From a virus, in IMG/VR virus record IMGVR_UViG_3300023109_000139, positions 1-23,958 of that record: a stretch of 23,958 nt of DNA; one strand, 5' to 3'. This document shows positions 1 through 22,914 of this stretch, piece after piece; positions within the stretch are counted from its first letter, which is position 1; every line of letters begins with the position of its first letter. The translations under genes were made by a program, and so were the position numbers. The notes under the pieces are model-generated. The model was not told the origin of the DNA, made no database searches, and was given only the letters and a program-made list of their open reading frames with translations.

Positions 1-3000
1 TTGTAACATTATTAGTTGGTATACTAATAATACCACTACCATTAGCTCGTAATTCTAAGTTTGAATTTGTATCAGTTGTTTCAATTGTGTTGCCGTCAAT
101 ACTAATATTGCCGTTTGTAAACTCTCCCCCAGAAAGAGTAAAGGTACCTGTTTGTACAGTATTACCAAAATGCACTAAGCCACCGCTTACGTTTACGCTT
201 TGTAAATCAGTAGTACCGTTAACTGTTAATGCTTGGCCAAATACAACATCACTAGTGGGAACAGTCACAACCCCTGTGCCATTAGCACGTAATTCTAAAT
301 CTGCATTTGATGCAGTTGCTTCAACAGTTGTTCCGCTAATTTGTACATCACCGATATTAGCATTATTTGCTGTTATGTTTGCTGTGACTGTTAAGTTATT
401 AGCACCAATGTTGCCCGTAACTGATAAGTTGTTGGTGATATTTACATCGTTATTAGGAACAAGTATTTCGCCAGTTCCGTTAGCACGTAATTCTAAATCT
501 GTATCACTTGTGGTAGTTGTAATAAAATTATCATCAATTAATATTTCTTCAAACTGTGCTGCTGCACCAACAGTTAGATTTTGTCCAACAGTTAAATCTT
601 CAGTAAGCGTATAATTTCCAGTTTGATTTAAATCTCCAACTAGTGTTAGTGTGCCTGTAATAGCTGTATTAGCAAGTGTAACTGTTCCATCTACAGTTAG
701 ATCATTATCTATTTGTACATTGTTACTAGGTACAAGTACTTGACCTGTGCCTGATGCACGTAGCTCTAAGTCTGCGTCTGAATCTGTTGTTGTAATATAA
801 TTGTCACGTATTTGTAAACTATCTACGTTGATTTGATTTACATACAAATTACTCCAAGTTTTTGTAGCAGTACCTAAACTATATGTGCTATCTAATCTTG
901 GAATAATATCACTGTCAATTCCTGCAACAAACTGAATAGTATCACTTGCTTCGTCACCAATTGTAATGTTGCCGCCAATAGTTACATTACCTGTGACATC
1001 TAAATCACCAGTAATATCAACGTTGTCTAATAAATTAATTTGTCCACTTACTGCTGCAAAGTCTGCGTCTTGCGTTAGAGTTTGAATAGTGTTGCCACTA
1101 ATACGCCAGTCACCTGTTTCAATTTTAGTTCCGTCTACAAATGTAGTATTGCTTCCTGTATTAAAAGAAACTCCATTAGTTGTGTTAATAATAAAGTCAC
1201 TAACACTAAATGCAGCACTACCTGTATCTTGATTTACATAAAATAAATCTCCAACTCTAAAGTCACCTTTGTGATCTACCGAGTTATAACGTATCTGTGC
1301 ATCATTTGTTTCAACTACTTCGTTTGCTTGAATAACTGTACTTGTTTCATTAGTAACTTCTTTTCCGTTACCAATATATGCTAGGTTGTGTCCAATAGCA
1401 TAAACTAATACGCCCGGACCATCTCCTACTAATCCAAAGTTGCCGTAAACACTAGCACTACCGATCATTCTAATTTCAGCACCAAAGTCTCGTACATCTA
1501 CATTTTCGATTGTAGTTGCAGAGCCGCCTCCACTAAATGCAATAGTTGCTGGGGTTGTGTCAAAGCCAATTAAGTCTGTATTCTTACCATCAACAATAAG
1601 TATATCGCCGTTTTCAACACTTTCAATTGTTAATGGGCCAACTACTGTTGAACTGTCTGTTGAAGTAAATGTAACTGTTTGACTTGCTGCTGGTGCTGTT
1701 CCTGATAATCCACTTAGTCTAATACGTGTTTTACCGTCGCCTCTTAATCCAGTTGTTCCGTCAAATGCGTTTAGGCCTTTATTTGCAAAATATGTAAATG
1801 AATTTAGCCATTCTATTCTAGCACCATTAGTTGCTGTAAGTGCATCTACACCTGGTGTAATAAATGTTGCTGCGTGGAATAGCATTGCTGCTTCGCGACT
1901 GTTAGTTGTTGCGGCACTGCCGTCTACTAGGGCGCCTTTACCAGCATCACCTTGTGCAAAGCCTCTCGGGTCACTTGCACTTGTTACGCTACCTTTTGTA
2001 ATTACTGTAATGTTTTTAATATACGGACTACGACTAGTTACAGTAAACCCTGTAGCAAAACGGAAAGCATATCCTGTGTCGTTGCTACTGTTATAATAAA
2101 AATCTGCAACTGTGACATCTTCTACAGTGCTTTCGCCATTTAGCAAAAATGCATCTAAATCTTGTGTTGCTACTGTAGGAACAATTTTTACACTTCTTAA
2201 ACTTTCGCCTTTGACTGTAACGCCTGCTGGAACTGTTAACGGAAATGTTTCTGTGTACACACCTGGAAGAATATGTATAGTTGGAGCAAGTTCGCCATTA
2301 CTAACATCTGTTGCTGCAACGCTTAATGCGTGTGCTACTGATGCAAACGGATCTTGCGGATGATTACCGTAATGTGAATCATCGCCGTTTTCAGCAACAT
2401 AATAAATATTTCCTTGACGTAATGTTAGATTAATACCATCAACACTAATGTTACCAGTATTAACGCCGTCAGTAGTAATAGACCTAACCCAAATATCGTC
2501 CCAACGTTTAGCATCTTTTTGTAGTTGTGTAACGTTATATGTTCCGTTAGGAATATCTGGAACAGATACACTTGCTGTTTGTGGATTTGTTCCAGACCAA
2601 TCAGAAGTAGTAGTTGCAGAATATCTAGTACCTGATACTGTGTTTAGTGTTATTAGATAATAATATCCTGTTGTTTCTGATGCTACATCGTCTATCCAAG
2701 CAACTCCGGCTGCTGGTATAGATAATGTTCCAGTACCGTTGTTTACAGTTATTGTAATATCGCCTGCTGTATAAGTGGAGCCTTCTGAATATACTGTTCC
2801 TGCTGTACCTAGTGTATACGTTCTGTCTATATCTGGAATAATATTACTTGCAACATCAGCATTAAATGTAATATTATCAGTGTCAGCATCGCCCAGCGTA
2901 ATATTGCCGTCTGCAGATATATTACCAGTTGCGTGAATATTTCCGCTAACATTCATATCTGCTAGTACTTCTACAGTACCTGTGCCATTTGGTCGAAGTT

Positions 3001-3364
3001 CTAAATTTGAATTTGATACGTTTGTACTAATGACATTACCTTCAACATCAATGTCGTCTACACGTAATTTATTGTTGTAAACTATGTTATCAAGGGTACC
3101 TAAATTAAGATATTGGCCATCACTCCAGATGGTATTACCTTGGATATTTACATCTCCAATATCTGCTCTATTAGTAACTGTTAAATTTGTTGTACGTGTT
3201 GTACCTGTGACGTCTAATTCGTATTGAGGTGTTGCGTTTTTGATACCGATGCGTTGATTGTTTACATCAAGATATAATAAATCCGTCTCAAAAGCTAAAT
3301 CGATTCCATTACGAATCAAGTTCGACTTTAAGAGCGGACCGCTAATACGACCGATGGCGCTCAT
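1..3364 (-). CDS. Giant tail-fiber-like protein, paralogue A (C-terminus beyond the window)
   Basis: I read this frame on the minus strand from ATG at 3364 to the left edge: at least 1121 codons with no stop seen in the stretches translated. A good ribosome site (TTGAGGAGAAAAG) precedes the start. The N-terminus (GRISGPLL, then a D-V-N-N-x-R-I-G-I motif) matches that of the gene at 3528-8639, so the two are paralogues. Next come a segment with G-D-A-D-T-D and N-I-I-P-D, a right-handed beta-helix-like region (IYYVAENGDD, then HILPGVYTET), and at least five copies of a fiber repeat of the form G-N-x-I-x-T-T-x-x-N-S-x-L-E-L-R-A-x-G-T-G. Compared with the paralogue it carries two extra blocks, at about 2507-2810 and 1490-1770. 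The repeat and helix folds are typical of phage adhesins; binding to a host surface is inferred. Its late promoter is at 3498-3505. Confidence 0.85.
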   Translation of the reverse strand, partial: MSAIGRISGPLLKSNLIRNGIDLAFETDLLYLDVNNQRIGIKNATPQYELDVTGTTRTTNLTVTNRADIGDVNIQGNTIWSDGQYLNLGTLDNIVYNNKLRVDDIDVEGNVISTNVSNSNLELRPNGTGTVEVLADMNVSGNIHATGNISADGNITLGDADTDNITFNADVASNIIPDIDRTYTLGTAGTVYSEGSTYTAGDITITVNNGTGTLSIPAAGVAWIDDVASETTGYYYLITLNTVSGTRYSATTTSDWSGTNPQTASVSVPDIPNGTYNVTQLQKDAKRWDDIWVRSITTDGVNTGNISVDGINLTLRQGNIYYVAENGDDSHYGNHPQDPFASVAHALSVAATDVSNGELAPTIHILPGVYTETFPLTVPAGVTVKGESLRSVKIVPTVATQDLDAFLLNGESTVEDVTVADFYYNSSNDTGYAFRFATGFTVTSRSPYIKNITVITKGSVTSASDPRGFAQGDAGKGALVDGSAATTNSREAAMLFHAATFITPGVDALTATNGARIEWLNSFTYFANKGLNAFDGTTGLRGDGKTRIRLSGLSGTAPAASQTVTFTSTDSSTVVGPLTIESVENGDILIVDGKNTDLIGFDTTPATIAFSGGGSATTIENVDVRDFGAEIRMIGSASVYGNFGLVGDGPGVLVYAIGHNLAYIGNGKEVTNETSTVIQANEVVETNDAQIRYNSVDHKGDFRVGDLFYVNQDTGSAAFSVSDFIINTTNGVSFNTGSNTTFVDGTKIETGDWRISGNTIQTLTQDADFAAVSGQINLLDNVDITGDLDVTGNVTIGGNITIGDEASDTIQFVAGIDSDIIPRLDSTYSLGTATKTWSNLYVNQINVDSLQIRDNYITTTDSDADLELRASGTGQVLVPSNNVQIDNDLTVDGTVTLANTAITGTLTLVGDLNQTGNYTLTEDLTVGQNLTVGAAAQFEEILIDDNFITTTTSDTDLELRANGTGEILVPNNDVNITNNLSVTGNIGANNLTVTANITANNANIGDVQISGTTVEATASNADLELRANGTGVVTVPTSDVVFGQALTVNGTTDLQSVNVSGGLVHFGNTVQTGTFTLSGGEFTNGNISIDGNTIETTDTNSNLELRANGSGIISIPTNNVT

Positions 3365-3527: not shown

Positions 3528-6500
3528 TTACCCAAAGATTATGGTGTATTCTAACAACAAATCATCAAATTCTTGGGCAGTAATTGCAGCTTGCGTACCT
3601 GTAGAAATTACGTAAGATGTTCCGTCCCATGTTTCAAGTTGATCTTCAGCTGTATTCCAGCGAGTGTCTCCAACTTGCGGAGCTGGGCTAGGTACAACTG
3701 TAGCTCCAGAAGGAATAACAACTCCGTATGATCCTGAAATCTTTGAATATCCAGAGCCGGTATTTTTAATAATTAAGTTGTTTCCGTCATTGTCAATAAT
3801 ATTGTTTTTAAATGACAGATCATCAAGAATTAATTTTCCTAATCCGTTTGCTCTTAAATCTAAGTCTGAATTTGAAACTGTTGTACTAATAATATTGTTA
3901 TCTAAAAGTATATCATCAGTTTGTATACCGTGTATTTCTAATCCATCAGTGTTAACTTCTCCCACCGTTGTTGAATTAACTACAAATTGTATTGTATTTG
4001 TTGCTGTATCAGCAGTAACGTTGGTTTTCGTGTTTTCTGAATACACGCCGCCTAGTGATATTGTGCTTGTTAATCCAGTGCCTTCAAATATGCTATCGTC
4101 AGTATTAAATCTTATGTCGCCAATATTTCCTGAGGTTGTTAATAATGCAGAACCCGAGTTATAAATAGTATCACTTGCTCCAAATACAGTTGTAGCATCT
4201 CCACCGTCTAGTATAGTGCTGCTGTTTAAGGCTCCTCCACCGTCTAAGAAAGTATCTTGTGCTTGTATTCTTTGTGCTGTTGTGCCTTTAGGAATTTGAA
4301 GAGACTCTGTAGAATCAATTATTAAATCTTCTGTAGGTGCTAGTGTTAATGATAAAGTGTCGCCTTCGGCAATATTTGTACCGATAATATCATTATTAAT
4401 TTCTATATTTTGTAATAATACACTTCCAGTACCTGCTGCTCTAAGTTCTAAATTAGAATTAGTATTTGTAGTAGTAATAACATTATCTTCAAACTGTACA
4501 TCTGTACTAAGTTCTATTATTTCTAAATCAACACTATTAGCAACATTTATACTATCAACATTAAAATTACGTACTGTTAGATTATTTTGTATATCTACAT
4601 TTTCTTGCAGCCTAACTTGTCCTGTTCCTACTGCACGTAAATCTAAGTTTGAATTAGAAACAATAGTTTCAACAACATTTCCGCTAATATTAATGTCGCC
4701 AACCTGTAATGGTCTTGACATTGTTAACATTCCAGCAGTTAGATTGCCTGTTAGATTATAATTGCCAGTTTGTGTAGTATTTCCAACCTGTGTTAGTGTG
4801 CCGTTAATTGTAGTGTCTTGTAGATTAGTATCACCGTTTACGGTTAAGTTTTGCTCTATAATAGTATTTTCTTGAACAACAACATCACCAGTTGCACGTA
4901 GTTCTAAGTCAGCATTTGATACCTTGGTGCTAATAAAGTTATCGTCTATTTCAATAATACTAGGCGGTATTACAATTTCGTTAAGGACTAAATCATTGTT
5001 TACAGTTATGTCGACTGTTGATATACTTGCTGTAAATAAATTATTATTGACTTGTACATTGTTATTTGGTACAAGTACTTCACCTGTGCCACTAGCACGT
5101 AATTCTAAATCACTACTACTTTGTGTAGTTGTAATAAAATTATCTTCAATACGTACATCTTCAAACTGTGCTTGTGAACTAATATCTAGTGTTCCTGTAA
5201 CATCAAAATTATCAGTAACAGTTAAACTACCGTCTTGTGTATTTCCTAGTAATGCAACATCACCATTAATAGTCAATGCGCCTTGATATGTTAGTGTGCC
5301 GCCAACAGTTAGATTATTATCAATTGTTACAGTATCGCTAGGATCAATTATAACTTCGCCTGTACCACTAGTGCGTAATTCTAAGTCTGAATTAGTTTCA
5401 GTAGTTGTAATAAAATTATCTTCAAATAATATGTTGCCATTACTAATTTCACCAGCAATATTTAAATTTCCAGTTTGATTAGTGTTACCAGTATGTGTTA
5501 CTGCACCTGTAATAGTTGTGTCTTGTAAACTAGTTGTTCCGCTTACTGTTAGGTTATTTGCAATTACAACATCATTAGCGTCAACATTTATATCACCTGT
5601 AGCACCTAGTGTTAAATTGCCGGCAATAGTAGTAATAAAGTTATCTTCAATATAAACATTATCAACAGTTAGTTCGCCGCCAATATTGTAGTCACCTGTT
5701 TGTGTTCTATCACCAACGTGTGTTAGTGTACCATTTATATTTGTTACATCTAAATTAGTTATACCATCAACATCTAAATCATTTGCAATTTCAACATTGT
5801 TGCTGTCAACGTCTATATTACCAGTTGCTTCTAATATTAAGTTACCTGAGGTAGTAGTAATAAAGTTATCTTCAATATAAACATTGTCAACTGTAAATTC
5901 GCCGTTTAGTGTAAAATCATTGCCTGTGTTAGTTCCTCTATCACCCGTGTGGTTTAGAGACCCTGTTATAGATGTAGTACTGCCTAATAAATCAGTAAGT
6001 CCTGCTACTGTAAAGTCTTGTCCAAACACAACATCAGTTCCGGTAACTCTAACTTCGTTGTCGGCATTTAGTATTAAATTAGAATCTGTTGATGTTGCAC
6101 TAATATTATTATCATTTATTTCAATACTACCTATGTTAGCGTTGTCTGTGGTAGCATTAAGCGTTATATTAGCGTTTGTAGCAGTCGTGTCGCCGGCTGT
6201 TAGGTTGTTTGTTACATTGACACTATCTTGTAAGTTAACCGTGCCTGTGCCTGCTGCACGTAGCTCTAAAGGGGTGTTTGTAGTGGTTGTTGTAATAAAA
6301 TTATCATCAACTAGTATTTCTTCAAATTGCGCACTTGCGCCTACATTGATGTTTTGACCTATGTCGGCATCTTCACTAATAGTAAAGTTGCCAGTTTGAT
6401 TGACATCACCTACAATTGGTAGTACACTATCAGTAATACTTAAATTGTCAAGTATATTAGTTGTACCGTTAATAGTTACGTTATTAGTAAATCTAGCACT

Positions 6501-8639
6501 ATCAGTAATACGAATATTTCCTGTGCCTGCTGCACGTAGCTCTAAATCTGCGTCTGTTTGTGTAGTTTCAATTACATTGTCATATATGTTAATGTCGGGA
6601 GTTTCTATTTTATCTAAGTGTGTTTGTAACCATTTTTTAGCAAACGAACCTAATGAAAATATTTGATGTTGATGCGGATTAAAATCTTGATCTAATGCTG
6701 TATTAAATGTAAGACTATCAGTTGTCTGATCGCCGCCTATGTTTAATGCGCCGCCGAAACTAAAGTCACCGCTGATACCTAAGTTTCCTGTTATGTCAGT
6801 ATTATCTTGTAAATTAATTTTACCAGTTGCACTTGCTAGATTTAAATCTCCGCTGTCAGATTGTATAAGGTTATTAGCAAGAATTAAATTACCAGTATCA
6901 ACAAACGCTCCGTCAATAACAGTAGTGTCTGCTCCTGTGTTAACACGTAATGCATTAAATTGATTTACAGTTAATGTATCAATATTAATTGTAGTATTTC
7001 CAGTTTCAAAATCTACAAAGAAATTGTCTCCAATTCTAAATCCGCCTGTGTGATCTGTAGTTACAAAATTAATTTTACCACTGTTAAGTTCGGTTACTTC
7101 TTGACTTTGTATTGCTCTACTATCGTCGTTGTCAACAAATTTACCAGCACCAATGTAACCAAAATTATGTTGAATAAGATACATTAGTGTATCTGAACCG
7201 TCTGCTACTGCACCTGAATTACCATAAACACTTGCTGAGCCAATTGAACGAACTTCTGCACCGTAATTAGTAGTTCCGTATGCAGTTCTACCAGTAGATC
7301 CGTTGACTGCATATAATCCTTTATTTGCAAAATATGTAAATGAGTTTAGCCATTCAACTCTTACACCATTGGTCATTGTAATTGCATCTACACCTGGTGT
7401 AATAAATGTTGCTGCGTGAAATAACATGCTTGCTTCAATACTTGCACTGTCTAATTCTGCTCCGTCAATCCAAGCACCTTTACCTGCATCGCCTTGGTCA
7501 AATCCTCTTGGATCACTTGCACTAGTTACACTGCCGCTTGTAATTATAGTTACATTTTGTATGTAAGGACTTCTGTTTGTAATTACTGCGTTTGGACTAA
7601 ATCTAAATGCATAACCGGTATTATTGCCACTGTTGTATTGATAATCTTTAATTGTTAAGTCACTAATTGTTGTGTTATCATCAACATGAAATACATCTTT
7701 GCTTTCACTACCTGCCGCAGGTTTCACTACAACATTTCTAATATCTACACCTTGTACTGAAACATCACTAGGTATAACCAAAGGTAAATTTTCTTCGTAT
7801 ACTCCTGGAGCAATCCTTATTGTTACCGGTCCTGCTGTACTCGAATCAACTCTTGCTATCGCTTCTTCAATAGTTAGTAACGATCCATTTGGATGATCGC
7901 CTACATTTGTATCTATGCCGTCTTTAGAAACATATATTATATTTCCTGCTCTATTAGTTAAGTCAATTCCGTTTACGCTAATAGTAGAAGTATTAAGTTC
8001 TTGTCCGTTTACAAGTCTTGTGTCAAGTGCGTCCCAAGATTTATATGATATTCCAAGTGAGTATGTATCTGTTTGATCAGGAATAATATTTGAATTTACA
8101 TCACTGTTAAAGTCTACACTATCGGTATCTGCATCGCCAAAGGTTATGTTGCCGTCAAGTGTTATATTCCCGCCAGCGTTTAAGTTACCAAAAACTTCTA
8201 AATTAGATTTTACTTCTAATTCACCAGTACCATTAAATTTTAAATCAATATCAGTGTTTGTGTCTTTAGTTGAAATATAGTTGTCAGTAATATAAAATTG
8301 TTCAGTTTCAAGATTGGTAACTTGTATATGTTCTCCAGCATCTAAATAGATATCACCGCTGTCTGTATTAATATTGTTTGTGGTTAATTCAAGATTACCA
8401 AGAAAAGCTGTTGTACTAAGTGCATCATCAGCTTTCACAGTTCCTAACACTTCAACTCGATTTGCAGGAGATTCAACACCAGCAATACCGATTCTATTGT
8501 TAGCTACATCAATTTTTAAAAGTGTTGGATCGCTATTTGTATTTTTAAAACTTAAATTGGCCTGAGTTCCGTTGGCAATGCCTTGTCTTAACAAGTTTGC
8601 TTCTAATAACGGACCGGATATTCTACCTACTTGTGCCAC
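3528..8639 (-). CDS. Giant tail-fiber-like protein, paralogue B (1703 aa)
   Basis: Virion adhesin or fiber-type protein. Residues 1-60 form a conserved attachment-like head (GRISGPLLEANLLRQG, then ANNRIGI) shared with paralogue A. Residues about 233-500 look like a right-handed beta helix of the pectate-lyase/DUF1565 kind (IYVSKDGIDT, IRIAPGVYEENLPL, then evenly spaced short beta motifs). From about 560 to 1500 it is built from repeats of the form D-N-F-I-T-T-T-x-x-N-S-D-L-E-L-R-A-x-G-T-G; I count about 12 recognisable copies across the whole protein, some degenerate. Between them are N-N-L-T-V-x-G-T-T and H-x-G-N-x-x-Q-T-G-N beta units. The C-terminus carries two copies of a G-D-x-R-(F/W)-N-T motif and ends in ITAQEFDDLLLEYTIIFG. 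The start is supported by AAGGAGAATATT upstream. Function as a receptor-binding or side fiber is inferred from fold type and late expression. Confidence 0.9.
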   Translation of the reverse strand: MAQVGRISGPLLEANLLRQGIANGTQANLSFKNTNSDPTLLKIDVANNRIGIAGVESPANRVEVLGTVKADDALSTTAFLGNLELTTNNINTDSGDIYLDAGEHIQVTNLETEQFYITDNYISTKDTNTDIDLKFNGTGELEVKSNLEVFGNLNAGGNITLDGNITFGDADTDSVDFNSDVNSNIIPDQTDTYSLGISYKSWDALDTRLVNGQELNTSTISVNGIDLTNRAGNIIYVSKDGIDTNVGDHPNGSLLTIEEAIARVDSSTAGPVTIRIAPGVYEENLPLVIPSDVSVQGVDIRNVVVKPAAGSESKDVFHVDDNTTISDLTIKDYQYNSGNNTGYAFRFSPNAVITNRSPYIQNVTIITSGSVTSASDPRGFDQGDAGKGAWIDGAELDSASIEASMLFHAATFITPGVDAITMTNGVRVEWLNSFTYFANKGLYAVNGSTGRTAYGTTNYGAEVRSIGSASVYGNSGAVADGSDTLMYLIQHNFGYIGAGKFVDNDDSRAIQSQEVTELNSGKINFVTTDHTGGFRIGDNFFVDFETGNTTINIDTLTVNQFNALRVNTGADTTVIDGAFVDTGNLILANNLIQSDSGDLNLASATGKINLQDNTDITGNLGISGDFSFGGALNIGGDQTTDSLTFNTALDQDFNPHQHQIFSLGSFAKKWLQTHLDKIETPDINIYDNVIETTQTDADLELRAAGTGNIRITDSARFTNNVTINGTTNILDNLSITDSVLPIVGDVNQTGNFTISEDADIGQNINVGASAQFEEILVDDNFITTTTTNTPLELRAAGTGTVNLQDSVNVTNNLTAGDTTATNANITLNATTDNANIGSIEINDNNISATSTDSNLILNADNEVRVTGTDVVFGQDFTVAGLTDLLGSTTSITGSLNHTGDRGTNTGNDFTLNGEFTVDNVYIEDNFITTTSGNLILEATGNIDVDSNNVEIANDLDVDGITNLDVTNINGTLTHVGDRTQTGDYNIGGELTVDNVYIEDNFITTIAGNLTLGATGDINVDANDVVIANNLTVSGTTSLQDTTITGAVTHTGNTNQTGNLNIAGEISNGNILFEDNFITTTETNSDLELRTSGTGEVIIDPSDTVTIDNNLTVGGTLTYQGALTINGDVALLGNTQDGSLTVTDNFDVTGTLDISSQAQFEDVRIEDNFITTTQSSSDLELRASGTGEVLVPNNNVQVNNNLFTASISTVDITVNNDLVLNEIVIPPSIIEIDDNFISTKVSNADLELRATGDVVVQENTIIEQNLTVNGDTNLQDTTINGTLTQVGNTTQTGNYNLTGNLTAGMLTMSRPLQVGDINISGNVVETIVSNSNLDLRAVGTGQVRLQENVDIQNNLTVRNFNVDSINVANSVDLEIIELSTDVQFEDNVITTTNTNSNLELRAAGTGSVLLQNIEINNDIIGTNIAEGDTLSLTLAPTEDLIIDSTESLQIPKGTTAQRIQAQDTFLDGGGALNSSTILDGGDATTVFGASDTIYNSGSALLTTSGNIGDIRFNTDDSIFEGTGLTSTISLGGVYSENTKTNVTADTATNTIQFVVNSTTVGEVNTDGLEIHGIQTDDILLDNNIISTTVSNSDLDLRANGLGKLILDDLSFKNNIIDNDGNNLIIKNTGSGYSKISGSYGVVIPSGATVVPSPAPQVGDTRWNTAEDQLETWDGTSYVISTGTQAAITAQEFDDLLLEYTIIFG

Positions 8640-11004: not shown

Positions 11005-11454
11005 TTATGCGTCTTCTGTAAAGTCGTCGTCGTCTGTTCCAACTAATGTATTATCGTCACCAGCTTCTTCAACTTGTGCTGCACCATCTGTTGTAGATGC
11101 TGCAAAGTTCCATGCTACACTTACACCGTCATACAAGTTAGTACCTGTTGCGCTTGGTGCTGACAATGTTGCTTTGCGTCCAGAAATTTTACTTACTGTA
11201 TATGTTTCTGCATCATCCATTTTGAATGAAATAGCCATTTCGCCTGCTGCTAATGCTGCTGGTAATTTACCAGTTGTTAGCGTACAAGTAAATTCACCTG
11301 CTGTGCCAATTTCTTCGCATACAAATTTTTTCGATCCTACTTGCTTTACGATATAACCTTCTTTGACTGCTGTGTCATTATGAAAGTTTACTTTGATTTC
11401 AGATCCGCCTGCTGTAGGTGCTCCAAATAATCTTTTGTTTAGTGGTCTTCCCAT
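11005..11454 (-). CDS. Putative virion protein of the MGRPLNKR type (149 aa)
   Basis: It begins MGRPLNKRLFG and continues with beta-rich sequence (I-K-V-N-F-H-N, Y-I-V-K-Q-V-G-S-K-K-F, T-Y-T-V-S-K-I-S-G). It ends in a strongly acidic tail (GDDNTLVGTDDDDFTEDA). I associate this N-terminus with small virion proteins encoded after gp23 in marine T4-like phages, but cannot name it. The ribosome site TAGGAG lies upstream. It is the first gene after a late promoter (11554-11561) and has an unusually structured leader. A capsid-decoration role would suit the position but is only a guess. Confidence 0.78.
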   Translation of the reverse strand: MGRPLNKRLFGAPTAGGSEIKVNFHNDTAVKEGYIVKQVGSKKFVCEEIGTAGEFTCTLTTGKLPAALAAGEMAISFKMDDAETYTVSKISGRKATLSAPSATGTNLYDGVSVAWNFAASTTDGAAQVEEAGDDNTLVGTDDDDFTEDA

Positions 11455-11478
11455 TTTTTTTCTCCTATAAAAAGTAGT

Positions 11479-11536
11479 CCTATGCCCGTTCTATGAGCTA
11501 CGCTGTGGGTTAAACAGCATAAGTCCGCCTTGCGGC
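11479..11536 (-). promoter_or_regulatory. Structured 5' leader of the late mRNA starting after the small RNA
   Basis: In the 94-nt predicted leader (11548 to 11455) the minus-strand RNA has GCC-GCAA-GGC (11527-11536, a GNRA tetraloop), GCTGT-loop-ACAGC (11502-11518) and a 7-bp long-range helix, CTTATGC with GCATAGG (11517-11523 with 11479-11485), ending just before the ribosome site. It could tune translation or protect the mRNA end. The role is inferred. Confidence 0.45.
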
Positions 11537-11553
11537 ACACTATTTGACACATG

Positions 11554-15902: not shown

Positions 15903-16613
15903 CTATAAAATATTAAAGATTTTTACAAAATCTTCAATAAACATAGTATTATAATTGTCAAATGTATTTAGTTCGTCAGGATCATAATTATCAGATGCTA
16001 TAACTCTAACAAATTTAGTTTCAGGATTTTGCTTTACTACTGCTATGGTTTGACGCATCCAGTTACCAAAAAATGTTGCACTATCAGTTGATTTTTTATA
16101 GTTTGCAGTGTCAGCATATATATTATTTAATAGTCTACCTTGGCTTAATCCTTTATAATCAAAGCCTAGTATATACACTGTTTCGTATCCATGTTCCGCT
16201 GCTAACCATAATGCTGTTGGTCCTGAACTCCAACCTTTTGACGGATTAAAAAAATTTAAATTTTTAATTCTTTGGTACGATTTGTTAGGATTAGTCCATA
16301 CTGTATTCTTATGTTGATAGCCTGCTTTGTTTATCTCAAGAACCATTTTAACATCAACTGCAACTAGATAATCAGGTTGAAATGTTCTATAAACTGCATT
16401 ACAAGCATAAACTTTTGCAATATTTTTTATTTTTTCTAAGTCAATAGACTTTCTACTTGTACCGTTTCCTAGTACAAAAGCAATATTATTAGAAGATTTA
16501 TTGATAGGATCTATAGATTGTGATAACGTTTTAAGACGTTTTTCTTGACGGCGTTCTTCTCGTATTTTGTGCCACTCTTTTTTAGTGAATTGAGACTTGT
16601 CTATTTTTGCCAT
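15903..16613 (-). CDS. Rossmann-like accessory protein, DUF115/MptE-like or glycosyltransferase-like (236 aa)
   Basis: After a basic N-terminus (KKEWHKIREERRQEKRLK) the protein shows IAFVLGNGTSR (45-54) followed by S-I-D-L-E-K-I, then VYACNAVYRTF and P-D-Y-L-V-A-V-D (68-87), and later GWSSGPTALWLAAEHGYE then V-Y-I-L-G-F-D (127-152). This spacing (G-N-G-x-S at the front, N and P-D-Y in the middle, S-x-P-x-A-x-x-L-A and G-F-D at the back) resembles DUF115/MptE-like proteins and some sugar-transferase families. A nucleotide- or sugar-binding role is therefore likely but not proven. It sits within the head cassette but is not known to be needed for capsid assembly, so it may be a modification gene carried along. 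The ribosome site is poor. Confidence 0.72.
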   Translation of the reverse strand: MAKIDKSQFTKKEWHKIREERRQEKRLKTLSQSIDPINKSSNNIAFVLGNGTSRKSIDLEKIKNIAKVYACNAVYRTFQPDYLVAVDVKMVLEINKAGYQHKNTVWTNPNKSYQRIKNLNFFNPSKGWSSGPTALWLAAEHGYETVYILGFDYKGLSQGRLLNNIYADTANYKKSTDSATFFGNWMRQTIAVVKQNPETKFVRVIASDNYDPDELNTFDNYNTMFIEDFVKIFNIL

Positions 16614-18658: not shown

Positions 18659-21600
18659 TTATACTATTCCCGTGTGCAAATTGTCTGATGTATTAGCTGC
18701 TGTTTTCTTATTGTATTTATTCGCGGACTGTAACTCGGTTAAAATTTGTGCTAATATCATTCTATTTTTAATTGCTTCTTCGTTGTTTCCGCCTAAATTA
18801 CTCATATTATCTATAGCACCGCCACCGCCTGATGCAGCAGTTGTGCCGCCTGTAGCTCCAGGAGTACTGGCTCCACCTAGTTCAGTGTTTAATTCGCCTA
18901 GTACTGCAACTAACTTCTCTAATGCTTCATTATACTTGGTTATTGCATCGCTGTCAAGTGTTTTGGTAATATCATTTAATCTTTGTAATCCGTCAGCACT
19001 TAGATTAATTTCACCTAAGTTTACATCTGAAGATGCAAATTCATTAAGTCCTTGTAAACCAGTTCCAACTTTGTGTATTGCATCAGCATTTACTTGTTCA
19101 AACTTTTTAAGTCCTTCTATTAGTGCATCAAATTGTCCTTCTTCGCCACCAAACAAGCTACTAATAAATCCGCCTACACCTTTGCTTACACTATCAAGTA
19201 CGCCGTCACCTGTAAATGCAGCAATACCTTGTTGTAACGCTGCTAGTGCTGGTCCAGTTGCTGTTAATCCTTTAACATCTAAGCCTTCAAAGGACTTAAC
19301 ACCTTTAGCAAGACCTTCTAATGCTCCGTCGCTTACAAAATTAGCAAAGAACCCTGCTGATGCTATTTCTTTAATAGGATCGCCGAGACCTTGTATTGCT
19401 GCTCCAATCGGAGTAAGTCCTGCAGCATCTAATCCTTCAAACGATTTAATTCCTGCTGCTAGTCCTTCTAATGCACCTTCACTAACAAAACTTGCAACAA
19501 TTCCGCCTTTGGCAAGATCCATAATGCCCGCTGTAAGAGGACCTAATGATGTGCCTACATCAAGTAGTTTACCTGAATCAAGATCTTCAAACTTTTTAAG
19601 TCCGTCAGCTAACTTTCCAACTGAACCTGTAATTGAATCAATTAAATCTGCAATGCCACTAGCACCAATACCAATACCTGCTGCTGCTGCACCAATTGCA
19701 ATTAATGGAAGTACCACAGGTTTTGCTACAAATCCTAATGCAACAATAGCTGCACCCATTACGCCTAGTGATATTGCTACTGTTTTCCAGTCCATATTGC
19801 TTATGGATTCCCAAATAGTGCTAAACATACCGCCAAACATTCCGCCGCTACCTTCGGCATTTTCCATCTCAGTAGATGTTTCAGCTATTTGTCTATCAAC
19901 TTCTCCTAATTGCGATTTTAGAGCTGCTAATTGTGCTTGAGCACCTTCAGTATTTGCACCTTCAACTGTTTTTATCTCTGTGTCTAATTCAGCTATTTGC
20001 TTTGCAATACTTTCTCTAGTATTGCCTAATGATGCTTGAGTTTTTTCTAAATCTGCTTTTACTTCTTCTGCACTCTGACCAAATATCATTGCTTTTAAAC
20101 TATCGATCATACTGTCAAATACAGGTTTTGCCGCGGTTCCTATATTTGACATTAAATTACTAAGTGCCGTACCAATACCAAAATTTTCTATATCAGTAGT
20201 AAATTGAGTTATCATTACTCCAATTTTGTCCATTGCTGTCTTTAACGAACCTTCAGAAGTTGACTTAAACAAATCAGATAGCTTAGTTAATTGCGGACCG
20301 ACTGCTTTAGTAATAGGTGCAACAACGTTTAATTCAAAGGCTTCTTTAATATTTCTTAATGTTTGTTGAAATGCTAACAATCCTTTAGCTGCTTCGTCAC
20401 GCTTGTCGTTTTCTTTTTGTGCAGCTTCAGCATCTTGTAAAAACTTTGCTCTGTTAAAATTACCGTTAGCGTCTGTATAGTCAGTAAACTTTATGCCCAT
20501 ATCGTTCATAATTTGAGCAATTTCGCCTGCAGGACCATCTAGTCCTGCGCCTGCTGCCATTAGCATAGTTTCCATACTCTTACCGGCATTTGCTTGCCCT
20601 TCAATAAAGTCTGCCAGTCTTCCTGCTGTTCCTGCACTAAATTGTTCCATTGTAACGCCGGTATTTGTTGCTTGTTCGTGCATAGATCGTATTGCAGTAG
20701 CACTATCGCCCATTGTTGCCACAAACATCTGTGTTGCACTAGTCAATGGTGGCATTCCTAAGAACTGTTGTTTAAAGTATTCTGCACCAACATCGCCACC
20801 AGCAGCTAATGCTTCTGCTAAACCTGCTTGTACCTTTGCACGTTCTTCAGGACGTAATTTTGCAAGTTGCATTTGGAATGCAATATCATTTTGTTTAGCA
20901 GCAAGTGCTTCTTTTTGTGCTTTTATGTCTTTGCCTGCTAGTTTAGACAATGTCAACAAACTTTTACTATACATTGCACTGCCTTCAGCAAGTGCTGCCA
21001 TATCTTGTTGTTGTCCTCGACTACCTGCTCTATTAAGAGTCATATAGTCCATTAACCCTTCGTTAATTTCTTCAAAGGTTAGGCCCATATTTAATAGGTC
21101 GCCTTCGTATCTATTAAGAGCCTTTCTTGCTTTACCAAACATTATGGCACCTTGTGTTACAGTACCACCAAATGCTGCTAAACCTTCAGTATTCTGGCCT
21201 ATTAGTCCTGCAAAACTTTCTAAACTAACCTTTGCTCCTGCTGCACTTGTTCTTAATAATGTCAAGTTATTATTAAAACTTGCACCTGAACTTGATAATT
21301 GTTGGAATACTGTTAATGTATTATCTAAGTATCCTGTAAACATTCCAAGTATGCTTCCGATACCGGGTATCGCACTTACCATATCGGTTAATGTGCCAGT
21401 TCCGTCACCAAATGCTTTTATTAGGTTAACACCAACTCCAATAACGCTGCCAATAGTCTTTTGAAGAAGTCCAAATGCACCAGTAGCAAGAAAGCTCACT
21501 GCACCAGCCATTTTCTCTAGTGCTGTGGTACTTTTATCAAGTCCTTTAGTATTTTTTGCTTGTGATTTAGTGCCCCTAGTTACTGCTGTTGTGTATAAAT

Positions 21601-21739
21601 CAGATGCTTTAGATGCTGCATCACTAGATCCTCCGCCGCCGCCCCCAGCTCCGCCTTTCATTACTTTTAGTAGTTCTTGTAATGTAGCTTCTGCTGCTGG
21701 TCCACCAGCAACGTCAACAATTTTTACTTCTTCAGCCAT
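18659..21739 (-). CDS. Tape-measure-like tail protein (1026 aa)
   Basis: Long, mostly helical, with no signal peptide. It shows the mix typical of tail tape measures: a Gly-rich linker at 29-38, helices with Gly-rich hydrophobic segments at about 78-105 and 652-697, a Gln/Ala-rich coiled region (565-627), and Gly-rich loops near the C-terminus (955-986). Residues 708-905 hold a repeat with a period of 50: KKFEDLD at 715, KSFEGLD at 765, KSFEGLD at 815, then a variant KKFEQVN at 878. If it sets tail length at the usual 1.5 angstrom per residue, the tail would be near 150 nm (inference). T4 has the tube gene gp19, not a tape measure, before gp20, so this order is unusual. It could instead be another internal virion protein. 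Confidence 0.75.
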   Translation of the reverse strand: MAEEVKIVDVAGGPAAEATLQELLKVMKGGAGGGGGGSSDAASKASDLYTTAVTRGTKSQAKNTKGLDKSTTALEKMAGAVSFLATGAFGLLQKTIGSVIGVGVNLIKAFGDGTGTLTDMVSAIPGIGSILGMFTGYLDNTLTVFQQLSSSGASFNNNLTLLRTSAAGAKVSLESFAGLIGQNTEGLAAFGGTVTQGAIMFGKARKALNRYEGDLLNMGLTFEEINEGLMDYMTLNRAGSRGQQQDMAALAEGSAMYSKSLLTLSKLAGKDIKAQKEALAAKQNDIAFQMQLAKLRPEERAKVQAGLAEALAAGGDVGAEYFKQQFLGMPPLTSATQMFVATMGDSATAIRSMHEQATNTGVTMEQFSAGTAGRLADFIEGQANAGKSMETMLMAAGAGLDGPAGEIAQIMNDMGIKFTDYTDANGNFNRAKFLQDAEAAQKENDKRDEAAKGLLAFQQTLRNIKEAFELNVVAPITKAVGPQLTKLSDLFKSTSEGSLKTAMDKIGVMITQFTTDIENFGIGTALSNLMSNIGTAAKPVFDSMIDSLKAMIFGQSAEEVKADLEKTQASLGNTRESIAKQIAELDTEIKTVEGANTEGAQAQLAALKSQLGEVDRQIAETSTEMENAEGSGGMFGGMFSTIWESISNMDWKTVAISLGVMGAAIVALGFVAKPVVLPLIAIGAAAAGIGIGASGIADLIDSITGSVGKLADGLKKFEDLDSGKLLDVGTSLGPLTAGIMDLAKGGIVASFVSEGALEGLAAGIKSFEGLDAAGLTPIGAAIQGLGDPIKEIASAGFFANFVSDGALEGLAKGVKSFEGLDVKGLTATGPALAALQQGIAAFTGDGVLDSVSKGVGGFISSLFGGEEGQFDALIEGLKKFEQVNADAIHKVGTGLQGLNEFASSDVNLGEINLSADGLQRLNDITKTLDSDAITKYNEALEKLVAVLGELNTELGGASTPGATGGTTAASGGGGAIDNMSNLGGNNEEAIKNRMILAQILTELQSANKYNKKTAANTSDNLHTGIV
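19024..19620 (-). repeat. Coding repeat of about 150 nt in the tape-measure-like gene
   Basis: Three units of exactly 50 residues and a fourth, more divergent and offset unit encode G-(L/V/I)-K-(K/S)-F-E-x-(L/V)-(D/N) followed by G-L/L-L, a Gly-rich hydrophobic helix and F-V-S-(E/D)-G-A-L-E-G-L. Units 1 and 2 share the whole pattern; unit 3 loses the F-V-S-x-G-A end. Confidence 0.7.
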
Positions 21740-21817: not shown

Positions 21818-22699
21818 ATGCAAAAATTTAATCCTAATGCGGGCAATGAAAATAATCCGCTTAAGAAGTATTTTAGACAAGCAAAACTACATGTTACTCT
21901 ACCTTCTGAGTATAAGTTTTATCCACCAGGATCAATTGATGTTCCTGAGACTGGAGAACTAGAAGTATTTTCAATGACGGCAAAAGATGAACTTTCTTTT
22001 AAGACACCTGATGCATTATTAAACGGTCAAGCAACAGTTGATGTTATACAAAGTTGTATTCCTGCAATTAAAAATGCATGGATTATGCCAAGTATAGATA
22101 TTGACGCTGCGTTAGTTGCTATTAGAATGGCAACATACGGTGAAAGTTTGACAATGACCACAAAAGTGCCAGTTACTGGTGAAGAAAGAGAATACGAACT
22201 AAACTTACGTGATGTTCTTGACGAGTTTTCAAATTTAGTTTATGATAATGTTGTTACCGCCGGGGATCTTACAATATTCCTCCGTCCTTTAACTTATCAA
22301 GAGTTTACTAAGAATGCATTAAAAACATTTGAAGAACAACGTATCTTTAATCTAGTTAATGATGAAAGTATTTCAGACGAAGATAAACTACAAGCGTTTA
22401 CTAATTCATTTACTAAACTTACACAATTAACAGTTGACATGATTGTGCAAGGAATTGATAAAATTGTAGTAGGCGAAGAAGAAGTTACTAATAGAGATCA
22501 TATTCAAGACTTTATGAAAAATGCAGACAAAGACTTTTTCAATAATGTTATGGATCATTTGAATACGCAGAAAGACAAGTATACAATTAAACCGATGGAA
22601 GTTCAATCAACTCCTGAGGATATTGCTAATGGTGCTCCGGCAACATTTTTAATTCCTATTACGTTTGATCAGTCAAATTTTTTCGCATCAGGATCCTGA
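21818..22699 (+). CDS. 26: gp26-like baseplate/tail-assembly protein, frame-0 product (293 aa)
   Basis: Resembles the T4 baseplate protein family that includes gp26 (Pfam T4_baseplate). Key features: LHVTLPSEYKFYPPGSI near residues 25-41, F-S-M-T-A-K-D-E-L-S-F-K-T-P-D near 52-66, then helices with QSCIPAIKNAW and L-R-D-V-L-D-E-F. The pattern 'L-P-S..Y-x-P-G..V..(M/T)-T-x-K-D-E' is what I rely on. It is longer than T4 gp26 (208 aa). In T4, gp26 belongs to the baseplate hub genes near gp51, gp27-gp29. The last 40 bases carry a frameshift signal (22675-22721), so this is probably the shorter of two products. It is the only plus-strand gene here apart from its extension, transcribed divergently from the tape-measure-like gene. 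Confidence 0.78.
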   Translation: MQKFNPNAGNENNPLKKYFRQAKLHVTLPSEYKFYPPGSIDVPETGELEVFSMTAKDELSFKTPDALLNGQATVDVIQSCIPAIKNAWIMPSIDIDAALVAIRMATYGESLTMTTKVPVTGEEREYELNLRDVLDEFSNLVYDNVVTAGDLTIFLRPLTYQEFTKNALKTFEEQRIFNLVNDESISDEDKLQAFTNSFTKLTQLTVDMIVQGIDKIVVGEEEVTNRDHIQDFMKNADKDFFNNVMDHLNTQKDKYTIKPMEVQSTPEDIANGAPATFLIPITFDQSNFFASGS

Positions 22700-22721
22700 A
22701 CTGGACCGTTCCAGAGATCCT
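22675..22721 (+). promoter_or_regulatory. Predicted -1 programmed ribosomal frameshift site
   Basis: Two overlapping heptamers in the correct frame: A-AAT-TTT (22675-22681) and T-TTT-TTC (22678-22684). A 5-nt spacer (GCATC) follows, then a stem-loop: AGGATC (22690-22695) with GATCCT (22716-22721) and CTGGA (22701-22705) with TCCAG (22710-22714), loop CCGT. The frame-0 stop TGA (22697-22699) is in the internal loop. Either heptamer gives the same fusion, ...S-N-F-F-R-I-R-I-L-N-W.... Confidence 0.8.
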
Positions 22722-22914
22722 AGCCGAAGTAAAGGTCCTCGAGCAAAATACTAAACAGTTAAAGCACGAGCTTACAAAACTATGTTGGTATATGCGCGGA
22801 GGACTTTCTTATGAAGAAGCATTCTACCTCGGACCTGAGGAAAGAGAAATTATTAGTAAAATAGTCGAAGAGAATATTGAAATTACTAAGAAAACACAAC
22901 TGCCGTTCTTTTAA
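22684..22914 (+). CDS. -1 frame extension of the gp26-like gene (76 residues; fusion of 365 aa)
   Basis: This frame is open from 22669 to TAA at 22912-22914, but has no ATG, GTG or TTG before a possible internal ATG at 22792. It is clearly coding: WTVPEILAEVKVLEQNT, a helix, L-C-W-Y-M-R-G-G-L-S-Y-E-E-A, then P-E-E-R-E-I-I-S-K-I and the end KKTQLPFF. Reading from 22684 after a -1 shift joins it to residue 289 of the gp26-like protein. The arrangement matches the G/GT tail-assembly chaperones, in which the longer product binds the tape measure during tail assembly. Alternatives are a non-AUG start (CTG at 22696) or an independent 40-residue peptide from 22792. The stop TAA overlaps the stop of the convergent gene in the palindrome TTAA. 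Confidence 0.75.
   Translation, partial: RIRILNWTVPEILAEVKVLEQNTKQLKHELTKLCWYMRGGLSYEEAFYLGPEEREIISKIVEENIEITKKTQLPFF

Follow-up and report, generated by a model that had tools for sequence, protein, structure and literature searches.

A gp26-like gene followed by a start-less reading frame

Is the short open reading frame (ORF) behind the gp26-like gene of an uncultivated T4-like virus a gene of its own or the second half of a frameshifted protein? The frameshift device that yields tail chaperones has been described as widely conserved "except T4" (2016 review, PMC5009743). We addressed this question in a 23,958-nucleotide stretch of an IMG/VR virus record (IMGVR_UViG_3300023109_000139, positions 1 to 23,958; hereafter, the window), which carries T4-like portal, capsid, and protease genes. 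An initial annotation, made from the sequence alone, had proposed that a -1 frameshift joins the two reading frames into a G/GT-type tail chaperone.

The upstream gene (positions 21818 to 22699, plus strand, frame 0) encodes a 293-residue protein. Its description as gp26-like is borne out by a match to the Pfam profile PF12322 (T4_baseplate; E value, 3.7e-14) at 53.4 bits, above the curated cut-off of 24.5, and the protein also matches the PHROG baseplate hub family phrog_150 (1e-16). The 3' end of the gene reads TCA AAT TTT TTC GCA TCA GGA TCC TGA. Two overlapping heptamers, A_AAT_TTT (22675 to 22681) and T_TTT_TTC (22678 to 22684), are both in phase, as originally noted, and the frame-0 stop codon (TGA, 22697 to 22699) lies 12 nt 3' of the second.

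After a slip at T_TTT_TTC, the -1 frame on the plus strand is open from 22684 to 22911 (76 codons), with a stop at 22912 to 22914, and would yield a 365-residue fusion in which DQSNFF is joined to RIRILNWT. This frame was said to lack a start of its own, and indeed no ATG, GTG, or TTG precedes codon 37 (the ATG at 22792). Dinucleotide shuffling produces a -1 frame that stays open for at least 70 codons beyond the stop in 0.5% of cases, and in-phase TTTTTT[C/T] occurs only twice among the 6469 codons of the window. Searches of Pfam and PHROG with the -1 ORF gave no useful direct match. An in-phase T_TTT_TTT is also present mid-gene, at codon 119 of 237, in a minus-strand gene at 15903 to 16613 whose product is weakly sialyltransferase-like.

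Conservation of the slip site in uncultivated and cultured phages

Used as the sole query, the -1 ORF retrieved 379 relatives from IMG/VR; TTTTTTC was kept in all 80 of those read, and in each the ORF was in register -1 relative to the ORF upstream. Because this query includes the slip site, the test was repeated with gp26 alignments ending before the Phe-Phe pair. In these searches with the gp26 N terminus, whose counts cover loci readable to the stop, the cyano-type loci (80/80) and the window-type loci (78/78) all have T_TTT_TTC in phase, a total of 158/158. T_TTT_TTT takes its place in eight of nine HTVC-type loci, the ninth of which stops early. None of the four readable T4-like control loci contains a slippery heptamer.

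Both heptamers had initially been read as the signal, and T_TTT_TTC proves universal in the clade but A_AAT_TTT does not. The latter needs a preceding AAT codon, which is present in 67 of the 78 window-type loci, and it was rejected as the true shift site. The residue before the slip site varies (N, S, or A); the third base of its codon is always T. Given the encoded amino acids, the codon choice across 39 window-type clusters (<70% identity) has a log10 P of about -42, a figure that is overstated because it assumes independence.

The same arrangement is found in cultured phages. T_TTT_TTC followed by a -1 ORF is present in Atu_ph07, Phosso, PA5oct, RaK2, 121Q, GAP32, Vibrio 2.275, SCTP-2, BF, CBB, and XbC2, and T_TTT_TTT followed by a -1 ORF is present in XacN1, so that all 12 jumbo isolates inspected have both a site and a -1 ORF. 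P-SSM2, S-PM2, and KVP40 also have T_TTT_TTC with a -1 ORF behind it, and HTVC008M, Cr30, and phiM12 have T_TTT_TTT (a run of seven Ts) in the same position. In these six T4-like isolates, the gp51 domain (phrog_634) lies exactly in the -1 frame.

Two phages depart from this pattern. In Rhodothermus phage RM378, the gp26 homologue is followed by a 67-codon +1-frame ORF at TCC TTT TTT TGG, possibly a +1 frameshift variant. The downstream ORF of Sphingomonas phage PAU is likewise in the +1 frame, has its own GGAG and ATG, and is probably a separate gene. Since both downstream ORFs are in the +1 frame, not every member of the PF12322 family, taken at its widest, has the device.

Candidate stimulators around the slip site

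A hairpin (22690 to 22721, plus strand) begins 5 nt downstream of the heptamer, the spacer given in the initial annotation. Positions 22690 to 22701 pair with 22708 to 22721, and the frame-0 TGA is inside the 5' arm, as first described; the stem, however, is not 6 + 5 bp but 6 + 3 + 3 bp with two bulges. Its minimum free energy is -15.8 kcal/mol (z = -1.97). Across the window clade, the stem (alignment columns 13 to 24 with 33 to 44) is paired in 76.0% of cells versus 69.3% after shuffling (0/500), and its covariation is 0.248 versus 0.161 (0/500); slid structures pair in 30 to 47% of cells. RNAalifold found no consensus stem in 40 sequences, and inner stem pairs fail in many relatives. The inner stem is therefore not uniform, and the hairpin, a probable frameshift stimulator, rests on pair counts.

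The cyano-type loci differ from the window clade in that their likely stimulator is an SD-like sequence upstream of the heptamer, not a hairpin. GGAGG is found there in 40/80 loci and GAGG in 27/80, the Glu residue is encoded by GAG in 67/80 (background, 30%), and the Gly residue by GGG in 20/80 (background, 4%); these loci are close mutual relatives, and the counts are not independent. No GGAGG- or GAGG-like feature is found upstream of the heptamer in window-type loci. An alignment of gp26 genes had been suggested as a check on whether heptamer, stem, and -1 ORF are kept together: heptamer and -1 ORF are, but the hairpin belongs to the window clade, and cyanophages have the upstream GGAGG instead. 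With a hairpin in one clade and an SD-like sequence in the other, the two therefore appear to use different stimulators around one slip site.

The -1 ORF and the gp51 of T4

The -1 ORFs of P-SSM2, KVP40, and HTVC008M overlap a gene annotated as gp51, "baseplate hub assembly catalyst." The gp51 of cyanophages and KVP40 is the -1 ORF behind T_TTT_TTC, annotated as a separate gene, usually from an ATG just past the gp26 stop. Both gp26 and gp51 are hub assembly chaperones, and gp51 is absent from the particle (Leiman et al., PMC3004832).

T4 gp51 consists of a PF12322 domain (residues 1 to 201; 3.9e-52) and a C-terminal phrog_634 domain. In alignment, it reads as the gp26 part joined in frame to the -1 ORF part; T4 gp51 is a gp26 paralogue to which the gp51 domain is fused in frame. 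T4 gp26 ends at the homologous place (GLKEFFELL), where the two Phe codons are the non-slippery TTC TTT. Thus, two genes give the short and long members of the T4 pair, and there are two in CP220 as well. T4 resembles the phages with a slip site in that gp26 and gp51 have the PF12322 domain in common and that gp51 carries, in addition, a C-terminal domain of the same kind; it differs in having two separate, divergent genes and in the non-slippery codons at the homologous Phe-Phe. Classic T4 appears to have replaced the slip device by two separate genes.

The window's own -1 ORF has no direct match to phrog_634. Comparison with cyanophage gp51 gave an E value of 0.11 with narrow profiles, and wide-profile hhalign comparisons with gp51 gave E values of 4e-4 to 4.5e-5 at probabilities of 35 to 69%. 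The link between this ORF and gp51 comes mainly from position and frame, and the sequence homology is weak.

The arrangement offers an answer to why the gp51 of cyanophages and marine vibriophages is without the first ~200 residues of T4 gp51 (Sullivan 2010, PMC3037559). On this reading, annotations of gp26 and gp51 are incomplete in the jumbo phage, cyanophage, and pelagiphage records inspected; the initial statement that frameshifting is not standard annotation for these T4-like genes holds in those records.

Selection on the -1 frame and other routes to the second protein

In 127 pairs at 5 to 30% divergence, the 29 codons past the frame-0 stop are free of stops in the -1 frame, where dN/dS is 0.19; the other two frames of the same codons have values of 1.3 and 1.6 and hundreds of stops. 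The following 22 codons of the -1 frame have a dN/dS of 0.165. This purifying selection indicates that the -1 frame is coding, in agreement with the view of the ORF as protein-like.

The downstream ORF could instead be a separate gene (gp51) reached by termination-reinitiation, with ribosomes stopping at the gp26 stop codon and restarting nearby. An ATG does lie 2 nt past the gp26 stop in 69 of 80 cyano-type loci and overlaps or adjoins the stop in Phosso, 121Q, XbC2, and BF, and the annotations of P-SSM2, KVP40, and HTVC008M treat gp51 as separate. However, no ATG is found within 30 codons past the shift in the window or in 25 of the 78 window-type loci, in HTVC-type loci none appears ahead of codon 18, and the slippery codons persist throughout, even at loci that do have an ATG. 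Further, the selected 29-codon stretch precedes the window's single in-frame ATG, evidence against a protein with a start of its own, and in T4 gp51 the two parts are fused. We regard reinitiation as an improbable explanation of the locus; in cyano-type loci, restart may yield free gp51 alongside the fusion.

Transcriptional slippage on the run of six or seven Ts, which would produce altered-length mRNAs encoding the fusion, seems very unlikely. The run is homopolymeric and extends to seven Ts in HTVC008M, Cr30, and phiM12, but it is short, and in nearly all loci it is ended by a C, for which a slipping polymerase would have no need and which a tandem slip on T_TTT_TTC tolerates. Both SD-like stimulators and a hairpin spaced as for a ribosome are, moreover, features of ribosomal slippage. 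That an assembly error or gene decay, by a sequencing indel, split one gp26-gp51 gene has a negligible probability even for a record that is a single metagenome contig, as it is refuted by the recurrence of this break at an identical codon in loci from the gp26 N-terminus searches (more than 150 contigs) and in cultured isolates, with the frame-0 stop and codon choice kept.

The comparative data remove a chance origin of the arrangement altogether. Programmed -1 frameshifting, as first proposed for this locus, is favored by the conserved phase and codon choice, by selection that acts on the -1 frame ahead of any start codon, and by covariation in the hairpin.

A predicted pair of tail-assembly chaperones

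Gene order is consistent with a role in tail assembly. In HTVC008M, the genes for the tail tube, gp26, gp51, a hypothetical protein, and the tape measure follow one another in this order, and KVP40 has tail tube, gp26, gp51, and a protein without an assigned function. In the window, the gene next to the gp26-like gene (18659 to 21739, minus strand) encodes a 1026-residue tape-measure-like or virion structural protein. The initial annotation correctly placed it as the immediate, divergent neighbor, not downstream, but its tape-measure assignment is weak (phrog_14121, 3e-5). That family is the one of RaK2 ORF088, annotated as "similar to tail tape measure protein."

An AF2 model of the window gp26 (pLDDT, 84.9) aligns with the HK97 tail-assembly chaperone (TAC) structure 2ob9 over 98 of 107 residues at an rmsd of 4.5 and a Z score of 6.2 (below 8), a match that is only suggestive of an HK97 gp13-like TAC fold. 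Foldseek found nothing significant for this model in the PDB, and a PDB sequence search found no relatives. VIA-align of a T4-like gp51 model gave no chaperone among the matches listed and nothing at a Z score of 5 or more.

The reading of the locus as a G/GT-type tail chaperone draws support from the gp51 annotation of the -1 ORF, the T4 fusion, synteny, and the weak full-length match to the HK97 TAC. It is very probable that -1 programmed frameshifting here makes short and long tail-assembly chaperones of the G/GT type. We infer the slippage event, its efficiency, and the chaperone role from these comparisons. Two chaperones would then arise from one start codon. Most ribosomes would stop at 22697 to 22699 and release the 293-residue gp26-like protein, the predicted short, lambda gpG-like chaperone (TAC-N). 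A minority would be held at T_TTT_TTC by the hairpin, where the two Phe-tRNAs would slip back one base and translation would go on in the -1 frame. The product would be the long chaperone (TAC-NC), whose last 76 residues, a putative gp51-like C-terminal domain (22684 to 22914 with the stop), match cyanophage gp51 and the C terminus of T4 gp51 in position and frame. If the pair works like lambda gpG/gpGT, TAC-N would coat the tape-measure protein, and TAC-NC would bring in tail-tube subunits.

Relation to known frameshifted chaperones

Frameshifted tail chaperones are classic, the device having been found in most phages with long tails. The lambda gpG/gpGT pair is one case (Levin 1993; Xu 2004; reviewed in PMC5009743). 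As in lambda, the locus pairs a short protein with a minor -1 fusion and has a heptamer near the 3' end in a tail gene neighborhood. It differs in that no sequence relation is detectable and the heptamer is poly-T; the lambda slip site is G-rich. The presence of the lambda-type device in distant T4 relatives offers an answer to why T4 seemed an exception to tail-chaperone frameshifting (PMC5009743).

Poly-T -1 frameshifting in a TAC gene that precedes the tape measure has also been inferred, from comparative genomics, for the TAC locus of the Vandenendeviridae/Andersonviridae (phage Adele, PMC12846349), a different phage lineage with the motif GTTTTT. By its title, a study by Vladimirov, Gautam and Davidson (2022, Virology 566:9-15) identified T4-like tail chaperone genes. 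It is cited by the PRFect paper (PMC10885494) for some T4-like phages in which a short gene is accompanied by a long, fused one and by the Adele paper for poly-T signals of frameshifting in the TAC-N genes of T4-like phages. For an explicit description of frameshifting in gp26, our literature search returned only such citing statements, the 2022 study being represented by its title and citations. With T4-like tail chaperones reported there, as far as these sources convey, our finding does not represent a new kind. Its novelty may lie in its breadth, which takes in uncultivated marine lineages and jumbo phages, and in the change of stimulators about an invariant site.

We lean slightly toward the view that the poly-T site is the ancestral, near-universal way for the T4 superfamily to make its tail chaperone pair. 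The site would have remained in place through a change of stimulator (an SD-like sequence upstream of it in cyanophages and a hairpin downstream of it in the window's marine clade), and T4 and Campylobacter phages would have lost the site, replacing it by paralogous short and pre-fused genes. These phages offer a natural series with one slip site, different stimulators, and a duplicated-gene alternative.

Other features of the window

An Rfam freshwater-2 RNA (RF02980; 66.1 bits; cut-off, 49.9) is present at 11452 to 11539 on the minus strand, directly upstream of an ORF at 11005 to 11454, next to the major capsid gene. Two very long proteins that resemble each other are encoded on the minus strand at 3528 to 8639 (1703 residues; no Pfam match) and 2 to 3364 (at least 1121 residues), and they share recurring repeats of the DLELRA.GTGE type.
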